Assembly (NCBI RefSeq): GCF_000721495.1
Contig: NZ_JOHY01000011.1
Coordinates: 124,001-188,000 of the forward strand
Origin: Streptomyces sp. NRRL F-5123
GTDB lineage: Bacteria > Actinomycetota > Actinomycetes > Streptomycetales > Streptomycetaceae
Reading direction: 5' to 3'
DNA: 64,000 nucleotides
The position numbers and the translations under genes were made by a program. This document shows positions 35,410-44,071 of the stretch, piece after piece. The notes under the pieces are model-generated. The model had not been told where the DNA came from. It saw only the letters and a list, made by a program, of their open reading frames with translations, and ran no database searches. Each line of letters starts with the position of its first letter. Positions within the stretch are counted from its first letter, which is position 1.

Positions 35410-36831
35410 TCAGGCCTCGGGTATCGGGATCGGGCGCTTCTCGATGGCCGCCGCCATGACGTCGGGGAAATGGTCGGGCGTGCAGGCGAACGCGGGCGCG
35501 CCGAGTGCTGCCAATGCCGCCGCGTGCTCCCTGTCGTACGCCGGCGCACCCTCGTCCGACAGCGCGAGCAACGCGACGAACTGCACTCCGGACGCCTTCA
35601 TCGCCGCGACCCGCTTCAGCATCTCGTCCCGGATGCCGCCCTCGTAGAGGTCGCTGATGAGCACGACCACGGTGTCCGCCGGACGGGTGATCCGGGAGGC
35701 GCAGTACGCCAGCGCGCGGTTGATGTCCGTACCGCCGCCGAGCTGCGTGCCGAACAGCACGTCCACCGGGTCGGCGAGCTGGTCGGTGAGGTCGACCACC
35801 GCGGTGTCGAACACGACCAAACGGGTCGCGATCGCGCGCATCGACGCGAGCACCGCGCCGAAGACGGAGGCGTGGACGACGGATGCCGCCATCGACCCGG
35901 ACTGGTCGATGCACAGCACGACGTCCTTCCGCACCGCGCGGTCCGCCCGCCCGTAGCCGATCAGCCGCTCCGGCACGACCGTGCCGTGCTCCGGCAGGTA
36001 GTGGCGCAGATTGGCGCGGATCGTGCGGTCCCAGTCGATGTCGCGGTGGCGCGGCCGGCCGACGCGGGCCGACCGGTCGAGCGCGCCGGTCAGCGTCGCG
36101 CGGGTGCGCGTCGCGAGCCGGGCCTCCAGGTCCGCGACGACCTTGCGGACCACGGCCCGCGCGGTCTCCTTCGTCGTCTCGGGCATCGCCTTGTGGAGCG
36201 ACAGCAGCGTGCCGACCAGATGGACGTCGGCCTCCACCGCCTCCAGCATCTCCGGCTCCAGCAGCAGCGCGGACAGGCCGAGCCGTCCGATCGCGTCCCG
36301 CTGCATCACCTGCACCACGGAGGTAGGGAAATACCGGCGGATGTCCCCGAGCCACCGCGCGACCTGCGGCGCCGATCCGCCCAGCCCGGCCCCCCGCTCC
36401 CCGCCTGCCGCCCCGTTCCCCCCGTAGAGCGCCCCGAGCGCCCGGTCCATCGCCGCGTCCCTTCCTGCGAGCGCATACCCCGTCCCCTCTCCCCCGGCCC
36501 CGCCGCCGAGCACCATCCGCCAGCGCCGCAACCGCTCATCGCCTCCGGCGGGGCCGGGGGAGACACCGCCGGGCGCGATGGCGCCGCCGCCGGCCGCGGA
36601 CACAGCAGGGGTGGGGGCGGGCACGGCTGCCGCGCCGGTGGGGCGAGGGGCGGCGGTCGCGCGGGAGGCGGCCGACGGGCCGGGCGGGGCCGCGGCCTCC
36701 GACGGGGCGGCAGCTGCGGGCACACCGGCGGGGCGGAGCATCCCGCCGGACGCCGCAGGAAATGGGGAGGAGGCGGCGGCGTCGGGCCGCCCGGCGGAGG
36801 GGGCTTCGGTGGGGCGGTGGGGATGTGTCAT
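35410..36831 (-). CDS. VWA-domain protein of the MoxR/DUF5682 system
   Basis: This 473-residue protein has a Pro/Ala-rich first ~95 residues and a helical middle part (residues about 100-300, DIRRYFPTSVVQVMQRDAIGRLG). The C-terminal von Willebrand A domain carries an intact MIDAS motif DQSGS at residues 309-313, followed by QLGGGTDINRAL and the third metal-contact segment LISDLYEGG. VWA proteins of this class are adaptors for MoxR AAA+ ATPases. The start lies 2 bp after the DUF5682 stop, so it is the last gene of a tight three-gene operon. Confidence 0.9.
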   Translation of the reverse strand: MTHPHRPTEAPSAGRPDAAASSPFPAASGGMLRPAGVPAAAAPSEAAAPPGPSAASRATAAPRPTGAAAVPAPTPAVSAAGGGAIAPGGVSPGPAGGDERLRRWRMVLGGGAGGEGTGYALAGRDAAMDRALGALYGGNGAAGGERGAGLGGSAPQVARWLGDIRRYFPTSVVQVMQRDAIGRLGLSALLLEPEMLEAVEADVHLVGTLLSLHKAMPETTKETARAVVRKVVADLEARLATRTRATLTGALDRSARVGRPRHRDIDWDRTIRANLRHYLPEHGTVVPERLIGYGRADRAVRKDVVLCIDQSGSMAASVVHASVFGAVLASMRAIATRLVVFDTAVVDLTDQLADPVDVLFGTQLGGGTDINRALAYCASRITRPADTVVVLISDLYEGGIRDEMLKRVAAMKASGVQFVALLALSDEGAPAYDREHAAALAALGAPAFACTPDHFPDVMAAAIEKRPIPIPEA

Positions 36832-36833
36832 GG

Positions 36834-42361: not shown

Positions 42362-42478
42362 GGGAGAGGAACGGGGAAGCCGGATCGCGAGTCACTCGCA
42401 ACGACCAAGGACAACGGATCCCGGACGACCACGCAGGGCGGGGGCGGAGCCCCGGCCCCACCGCGAGGAGGCACGCGC

Positions 42479-44071
42479 ATGGAGATGAAGTGGGACGACC
42501 TCATCGGCATCGCACTGCTCGGCACCGAGCGGCGCCGCCCGGCCGGGGTCATAGGTGACGCGGCGGAAGCCGCGTCGAGCCTGCTGGACGCCGCCGCGGC
42601 CGGTGTCGTACGGCGGCGCGCCGGACTGCTGCCCGGGTCAGCGGGACCGCGGCCGAAGCCCGCCGCCCCGGACCGGCGGCCCGAACTGCCGCCCGCCGCC
42701 CGCCGACGGCTCGCCACGCTGCTGGCGGACCGCTCCGGTTCCGGTGGCGGCAACCGGCGCGGGGCCGCCCCGAATCTCGCCGAGCTGCTGCCGCAGTGGC
42801 TGGCGGCGGCCCGCCGCGAGGGCTACGCCGTCCCGCCCGAGCTGCTGCCCGCGCTGCTGGACGTGGCCCGGGCCCGTACGGACCTGCGGGCCGACGCGCT
42901 CGCCTTCGCCGGCCCCGGCGGACGGTGGCTCGCGCAGCTCAACCCGGACTGGGCGTACGCGTTGCGCGCGGGCGCGGCAGCAGTCCCCGAGCCGGGCCCG
43001 CCCGGCACCGAAACGGAGCAGGACCAGGAAGAGGCCGCACGGCTGTGGGAGGAGGGGTTGTTCGCCGAACGGGTCGCGCTGCTCACCCGGCTGCGGACGA
43101 GCGCCCCCGACACCGGCCTCGCGCTCCTCGCGGCGACATGGAAGAGCGAGCGCGCCGAGGACCGGCTGATGTTCCTCGACTCGCTGCGCACCGGGCTCTC
43201 CCCGGCGGACGAGACCTTCCTCGAACAGGCGCTGTCCGACCGCAGCCGCAACGTACGGGCGACAGCGGCGGAACTGCTCTCCGCGCTCCCCGAATCCGCG
43301 CTCGCCGCGCGCATGGCCGTACGCGCCCGCACCTGCGTATCGCTCGGCCCCGAGGGCATCGTCGTGGAGGCGCCCTATGAATGCGACGCCGCGATGGAAC
43401 GCGACGGCGTCGCCCCGCGCCCCCCGAACGGCCGCGGGGAGCGCGCATGGTGGCTCGGCCAACTGGTGGACGCGGCCCCGCTGTCCATGTGGCCCGCCCG
43501 CTTCGGCGGCCGCAGCGCCGAGCAGATCATCGCCCTGCCCGTGCTGGACGACTGGCAGCCCGACCTGCACGCCGCGTGGTGCCGGGCCGCCGTCCGACAG
43601 CGCAACGCCGTCTGGGCACGGGCCCTCCTCGGACCACCCCCCGCACCCACCGCGCCCGTCATCGCCATCGGCGACCCGGCCAAGCTGCTCTCCATACTCC
43701 CGCCGGCGGAGCGGGCGGAATGGGTCGCGTCCTTCGTCGCCGCACACGGCCTCTCCGAGGCCTTCCAGATGCTCGGGGTCTGCGCTGTCCCCTGGGCCGC
43801 TCCCCTCGGACGGGCTGTGGTCGACGCACTCGACATCGCACGGGACGCGGGCAGTTACCCCTGGAGCTTCAGCGGCGTCATGGGCCTCGCCGAGCGCTGC
43901 CTCGACCCTGCGGGGGCTGAGCAGGTCGCGGTCCTCGCCTCCGCCGGCGAGGAAGCTGCCGACGGCGCACCGGGCGCCTCCGCGTACTGGGCCGAGGCCT
44001 TCCAACGCCTCGCCGGCACCCTCCGCCTGCGAGCCGCCATGCTCGCCGAGCTCCACCCCCGCGGGGCGTGA
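42479..44071 (+). CDS. DUF5691-family protein
   Basis: This 530-residue protein starts at ATG 42479 behind GAGGAGG. It matches the DUF5691 family that accompanies SWIM and MoxR/VWA genes in actinobacteria. It looks all-helical and repeat-like (LEQALSDRSRNVRATAAELLSALPESALAARMAVRA resembles a HEAT-type unit), with no catalytic motif. It is 117 bp downstream of the SWIM gene. A scaffold role in the system is inferred. Confidence 0.85.
   Translation: MEMKWDDLIGIALLGTERRRPAGVIGDAAEAASSLLDAAAAGVVRRRAGLLPGSAGPRPKPAAPDRRPELPPAARRRLATLLADRSGSGGGNRRGAAPNLAELLPQWLAAARREGYAVPPELLPALLDVARARTDLRADALAFAGPGGRWLAQLNPDWAYALRAGAAAVPEPGPPGTETEQDQEEAARLWEEGLFAERVALLTRLRTSAPDTGLALLAATWKSERAEDRLMFLDSLRTGLSPADETFLEQALSDRSRNVRATAAELLSALPESALAARMAVRARTCVSLGPEGIVVEAPYECDAAMERDGVAPRPPNGRGERAWWLGQLVDAAPLSMWPARFGGRSAEQIIALPVLDDWQPDLHAAWCRAAVRQRNAVWARALLGPPPAPTAPVIAIGDPAKLLSILPPAERAEWVASFVAAHGLSEAFQMLGVCAVPWAAPLGRAVVDALDIARDAGSYPWSFSGVMGLAERCLDPAGAEQVAVLASAGEEAADGAPGASAYWAEAFQRLAGTLRLRAAMLAELHPRGA

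Follow-up and report, generated by a model that had tools for sequence, protein, structure and literature searches.

A five-gene MoxR/VWA/DUF5682/SWIM/DUF5691 block with divergent PafBC-type promoter motifs in Streptomyces sp. NRRL F-5123 and its likeness to Deinococcus ddrTUVWX

The Deinococcus operon ddrTUVWX (Deide_18730 to Deide_18690) is described as part of the radiation/desiccation response (RDR) regulon, radiation-induced through IrrE/DdrO and of unknown function (PMC5552922). In 2009 the set was suggested to act as a MoxR/VWA chaperone (PMC2669436), and in D. taeanensis the operon, called by the same name, has an extra open reading frame (ORF) of 78 aa (PMC9510100). Here we analyze a block of five genes, encoding MoxR, DUF5682, VWA, SWIM and DUF5691 proteins, in the 8.8 Mb genome of the actinobacterium Streptomyces sp. 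NRRL F-5123, within a stretch of 64,000 nucleotides (contig NZ_JOHY01000011.1, positions 124,001 to 188,000; hereafter the window). The ddrTUVWX operon of D. taeanensis, whose proteins rather than those of D. deserti were compared, encodes the same five protein types: identity to the window proteins is 71% for MoxR, 54% for VWA, 45% for DUF5682 and 36% for SWIM, with DUF5691 recognized by Pfam (53.7 bits). The two differ in layout and control. The Deinococcus genes occupy one strand in one operon with a DdrO/IrrE site, whereas the window block is built of two divergent arms with PafBC-type promoters. We consider it rather probable that the block is the actinobacterial form of ddrTUVWX, that is, a DNA-damage-inducible AAA+/VWA machine that is controlled by PafBC, works alongside a hydrolase-like protein and is directed to its targets by SWIM and DUF5691.

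E. coli yehLMPQ also brings together four of these protein types (MoxR, DUF5682, VWA_CoxE and SWIM); Pfam detects no DUF5691 there. YehL is 40% identical to the window MoxR over 356 residues, and RavA 24% over 102 residues, a marginal match; judged by identity, and with only these two subfamilies compared, the window MoxR is nearer to YehL. YehM matches DUF5682 along its length, while the resemblance between the SWIM proteins of E. coli and the window is confined to the surroundings of the zinc motif and is not significant. In a tree of 10 rows with long branches, YehL pairs not with the window MoxR but with a paralog from elsewhere in the Streptomyces genome. This paralog belongs to a second MoxR/VWA pair, both named by Pfam, found together with a diverged DUF5682-like stretch (L159, own genome C5:169000-188900, at 7613-13577, minus strand); a two-mismatch copy of the promoter motif discussed below, TTGTCAGAC-N8-TACCTT, lies at 15437 of L159 on the same strand as the pair. 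In E. coli K-12 the DUF4132 gene yehI closely precedes yehLMPQ, separated from it by the small gene yehK (L141, 2280-5912). RavA-ViaA, NorQ-NorD and CoxD-CoxE share with the block an AAA+ ATPase and a VWA adaptor with a metal ion-dependent adhesion site (MIDAS) motif; unlike them, the block adds DUF5682, SWIM and DUF5691 and has a damage-type promoter. A previous sequence-only reading of this DNA had taken the set to be undescribed, a view that the Deinococcus set and the four E. coli types overturn. Among open-licence PMC papers, we found none treating DUF5682 or DUF5691 by name and, in the titles and beginnings of abstracts that were listed, no functional study of the set.

Pfam confirmed all five genes proposed by that reading. 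On the minus strand, moxR (39767..40879; AAA_5, 130.9 bits) encodes a MoxR-type AAA+ ATPase with the Walker A motif GVPGTAKT (40583..40606), and is followed by the DUF5682 gene (36834..39770; PF18934, 975.4 bits) and the gene of a CoxE-like VWA adaptor (35410..36831, start ATG 36831; VWA_CoxE, 208.2 bits) bearing the MIDAS motif DQSGS (35893..35907). Diverging from these on the plus strand are the SWIM zinc-finger gene (41018..42361; PF04434, 25.4 bits, cut-off 19.6), whose zinc motif CSCPSRKFPCKH spans 41225..41260 (this motif, like the two preceding ones, from a motif scan), and the DUF5691 gene (42479..44071; PF18944, 571.5 bits). For the HEAT-like label once given to DUF5691, the underlying match falls below threshold (14.1 bits vs. 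a cut-off of 23.5). The tight packing claimed for the minus-strand arm stands for the VWA gene, which begins 2 bp past the DUF5682 stop. The overlap of moxR and DUF5682 hinges on the start chosen: ATG 39770 overlaps the moxR stop (ATGA), whereas the database version of the protein (P0001, 808 aa) starts at GTG 39260, 170 codons later. The 170 residues between the two starts are Ala/Pro-rich, forming a spacer whose length differs among relatives. Where this variable spacer occurs in Streptomycetaceae, a small hypothetical ORF lies between MoxR and DUF5682 in D. taeanensis (L142, 7774-8010, 78 aa) and Hymenobacter (L146, 7377-7988, about 203 aa).

The 138-bp gap between moxR and the SWIM gene contains, as originally claimed, the inverted arms CCACTGACAATC at 40942 and GATTGTCAGTGG at 40986, each forming a PafBC type, or RecA-independent promoter (RecA-NDp) type, motif. 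One is directed towards moxR (40929..40951, minus strand, -10 CACAGT) and the other towards SWIM (40988..41010, plus strand, -10 TAGCGT); both match exactly and both are conserved in relatives. With TTGTCAGTG-N8-YANNNT as the strict pattern and its reversal as control, these two sites, pointing apart, are the only exact copies in the window, and six matches with up to two mismatches occur, against 0.79 expected from shuffles. The consensus printed in PMC5656591 is tTGTCRgtg-8 nt-TannnT, to which both sites conform except for the moxR side, with C instead of T at -10 (CAnnnT). The two sites agree in the motif but not at -10, which opens with TA on the SWIM side and CA on the moxR side. Control by LexA was considered and rejected, the GAAC-N4-GTTC box being absent, strict or loose, across the whole window. 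For the RDR motif, neither TTATG nor CATAA was seen by eye in the 138-bp region, no motif scan having been aimed at it.

The pattern recurs across the genome in 20 exact copies, compared with none for the reversed control, and was found in 39 of 41 genomes (own included), the control scoring 0 in all 41. At 11 of the 18 other exact sites of the genome Pfam names the gene downstream, and at the remaining seven there is no match at 1e-4; some of the assigned genes may be wrong, because they were picked by distance and codon bias. The products named are RecA, UvrA, a DNA_pol_A protein, a macrodomain protein, an AlkZ-like glycosylase, a RecD2-HHH protein and a Cas3-HD/DEAD protein, besides two members of the glyoxalase family, an ABC ATPase and a HEPN protein; several of the genes, such as recA and uvrA, serve DNA repair. 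The exact copy directly upstream of the Cas3-HD/DEAD helicase gene (L116, own genome C8:13313-13335, minus) hints that a CRISPR-type gene may be damage-controlled in this strain. Elsewhere in the genome two more exact motifs diverge from each other (L114/L115, own genome C6:115207 minus and 115350 plus), and a glyoxalase/bleomycin-resistance-like gene flanks this pair on one side. A tandem pair of WYL-domain genes is also present 2.3 kb past a Pup ligase gene, PafB/PafC-like as named by position and domain; the pafBC genes of mycobacteria sit near Pup ligase in like manner. The block thus shares with the PafBC regulon the motif, its spacing and orientation, in a genome where repair genes carry the motif and PafB/PafC-like genes are present. 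In S. coelicolor, a RecA-NDp promoter precedes the UV-inducible gene SCO6735 (PMC5087735). On the other hand, an initial search remarked upon in PMC9380542 suggested that the motif is not conserved in S. venezuelae. Our motif counts, which describe the family at large, argue against this preliminary remark and in favor of a PafBC-type response in Streptomyces.

The Streptomycetaceae-type test set comprised the 77 of 80 named loci with both SWIM and MoxR matches; L065, L075 and L082 were dropped for lack of such a pair, although L082 holds two strict sites. Both strict sites were present in 65 loci, one in 9 and none in 3, and the remaining 1,298,435 bases of these loci gave zero strict matches. 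Twelve loci thus lacked one or both strict sites; in 10 of them whatever the strict pattern missed was present within one mismatch, and two others, L044 and L049, have the moxR-side site only, with SWIM matches more than 2 kb away and hence no proper test. The -10 begins with TA in 69/69 strict sites on the SWIM side and with CA in 70/70 on the moxR side, preceded immediately by TG in 69 of the latter. Because the SWIM coding sequence opens 7 nt past the -10, in the window and in 66 of the 69 strict sites of relatives, the SWIM gene is probably leaderless; GTG stands at the same place in most of 16 other loci listed. The gap between the divergent strict sites (65 loci) measures about 25-27, 36-38, 49, 60-61 or 72 nt, with outliers of 250 and 1013. 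Helical phasing was discarded as an explanation of this series, given that steps of about 12 bp misfit 10.5 bp and that the loci are related.

Outside the Streptomycetaceae type, 28 of 35 actinobacterial loci could be tested, 7 being skipped with the SWIM N-terminus uncovered. Mismatches before SWIM numbered 0 in 3 loci, 1 in 4, 2 in 11, 3 in 7, 4 in 1 and 5 in 2, so that two or fewer were observed in 18/28 loci vs. 0.075 loci predicted from the background rate; these 18 are not independent, as 14 belong to one family (f64); of the other four, one is from Nocardia farcinica and one from Nonomuraea, and f6 and f26 supply one each. In family f65 all six loci have three or more mismatches before SWIM. 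Of three loci of a more distant family, scanned apart (L162-L164), one has a site with two mismatches, in which the first base of the -10 is missing, and the other two have none within two mismatches. Overall, the comparison supports a conserved pair of RecA-NDp/PafBC-type promoters, in line with the damage promoter proposed from the motif at the outset, for which the PafB/PafC-like genes also speak.

The five genes keep company well beyond this genus. The one-strand order SWIM-DUF5691-MoxR-DUF5682-VWA is annotated on plasmids of D. taeanensis, a Rhizobium and Methylosinus, and tblastn located it also in Methylobacterium, Nocardia farcinica and Nonomuraea, whereas the divergent two-arm layout is that of the window and the Streptomycetaceae-type loci. 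The Hymenobacter copy unites DUF5691 and a stretch resembling SWIM (by tblastn; Pfam gives no SWIM match) in a single ORF. DUF5682, whose best named relatives are from Streptomyces and Actinacidiphila, is present in 50/61 relatives; DUF5691 occurs in 27/28 same-family genomes among those listed, in 63/296 genomes sampled from the class and in 10/149 from the phylum. With the patterns used, no SOS-type boxes were seen ahead of the copies in E. coli, Rhizobium, Methylosinus, Hymenobacter and Methylobacterium. Comparison supports an association of all five in Deinococcus as well as in alphaproteobacteria and further actinobacteria, bearing out the expectation that they would co-occur in other genomes.

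The block also keeps its place in the genome, with sucCD adjoining it in 72/75 testable loci and a B12-binding mutase subunit gene in 38/38. In the window a FAD-monooxygenase-like ORF (44511-45965, minus) stands between DUF5691 and this mutase gene, probably as a local insertion, since it is unmatched in all 38 testable relatives. A tRNA-Thr called by ARAGORN (33719-33803, plus), antisense inside the sucD coding region, is probably a false positive.

The hydrolase nature first conjectured for DUF5682 receives moderate support from a structural model. The N-terminal alpha/beta head (38253..39236, minus strand; mean predicted local distance difference test score, pLDDT, 83.4) was modeled alone because repeat proteins crowded the results of fold searches with the full length; the part of the model matched to such generic repeat proteins defines a helical solenoid (37011..37922, minus strand; pLDDT 88.6). 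Structural matches of the head include ChaN, EreC, 2QGM and HopBA1, with 10-15% identity in those rows, proteins that we take to be akin to one another as an EreA/ChaN-like fold. A Foldseek search returned nothing significant, the DUF5682 profile gave three matches to sequences of solved structures (best E 0.92), and hhalign against a single TraB family sequence, E. coli YbaP, was not significant (0.14%, 13 columns). Judged by its titles, the structural match list is free of TIKI and TraB entries, which excludes nothing. Four conserved residues, H191 and H192, E215 and H423, each follow a strand in the head model and are candidate catalytic residues. The evidence that DUF5682 carries a hydrolase-type head of EreA/ChaN-like fold is moderate; the long helical solenoid attached to it sets DUF5682 apart from the matched proteins, and catalysis may be expected.

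In the mechanism that we put forward, the two divergent PafBC-type promoters would switch on both arms together, with binding and induction predicted from the conserved motif and the presence of the regulator genes. By analogy with known MoxR/VWA families, a MoxR hexamer with its VWA adaptor would remodel, at the expense of ATP, a client that the adaptor binds through its MIDAS motif; DUF5682 would be the partner activated or fed by this pair, presumably as a hydrolase, and SWIM and DUF5691 might form the targeting arm. The purpose, the least certain step, may be the clearing or repair of protein or nucleoprotein lesions after DNA damage. A more specific version is a long shot: damage-induced MoxR/VWA would pull DNA-crosslinked or jammed proteins into or past the DUF5682 head, with SWIM/DUF5691 locating the lesion. 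Such a machine would match eukaryotic Cdc48 with SPRTN/Wss1 in its logic though not in its sequence, and would answer to DdrO and PafBC, two damage regulators unrelated to each other.

Other explanations deserve consideration. Where the task of a MoxR/VWA pair is known, it is the insertion of metals or the maturation of enzymes (PMC3893208, PMC9976466), the window VWA is CoxE-like, and oxidative-stress genes are also reported in the PafBC regulon (PMC8223512). The block could therefore be a metal- or cofactor-insertion chaperone like NorQ/NorD or CoxD/CoxE, maturing DUF5682 or another enzyme within an oxidative-stress branch of that regulon and without action on DNA lesions. We hold this to be unlikely, as the five-gene set comes without a cofactor enzyme in the loci read and the Deinococcus operon lies within the radiation response regulon. 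Nor is the DNA-damage reading of the promoters immune to challenge: the motif might be real but read by another factor such as ClgR, or the region be subject to general growth-phase control, leaving the block outside the PafBC damage response in this genus. A study cited in PMC5656591 had ClgR recognizing the recA P1 promoter region, and the S. venezuelae remark of PMC9380542 points the same way. Yet the sites fit the PafBC consensus (moxR side C for T at -10), the same motif precedes recA and uvrA in this genome, and PafB/PafC-like genes coexist there, which makes such a reassignment improbable in our judgment.

An anti-phage or self-sacrifice MoxR-vWA conflict system, to which DNA damage would be a sign of infection, is likewise hard to credit. 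MoxR-vWA cores are the hub of the conflict systems proposed in PMC7159879, from which the definition of the ternary system is also taken, and the Cas3-like gene of the same genome also has the motif. However, PADLOC matches none above 12.6 bits, Pfam finds no effector domain in the VWA protein, and bpMoxR falls below the cut-off. More generally, VMAP, iSTAND, an FtsH third component and VWA-fused effectors were not found above the Pfam cut-off in the five proteins, although some such domains may have no Pfam model. The fixed genomic place (72/75 testable loci, with the mutase gene adjoining in 38/38) and the near-universal DUF5691 of the same-family genomes listed (27/28) also speak against a defense role.

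Returning to the reading of the block as a damage-inducible machine of ddrTUVWX type, what is new is the occurrence of such genes in Actinobacteria under an unrelated type of damage promoter, together with a DUF5682 model in which a hydrolase-type head of EreA/ChaN-like fold sits on a helical solenoid. The same five genes answer to the IrrE/DdrO repressor system in Deinococcus and, on the present evidence, to PafBC-type promoters in Streptomycetaceae and no fewer than three further families of actinobacteria. This placement under two unrelated damage regulators speaks more strongly than anything else for a role related to DNA damage, and is a strong hint that the set has a real part in surviving DNA damage. 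The block offers a concrete gene set for deletion in tractable strains, with candidate catalytic residues of DUF5682 already named.

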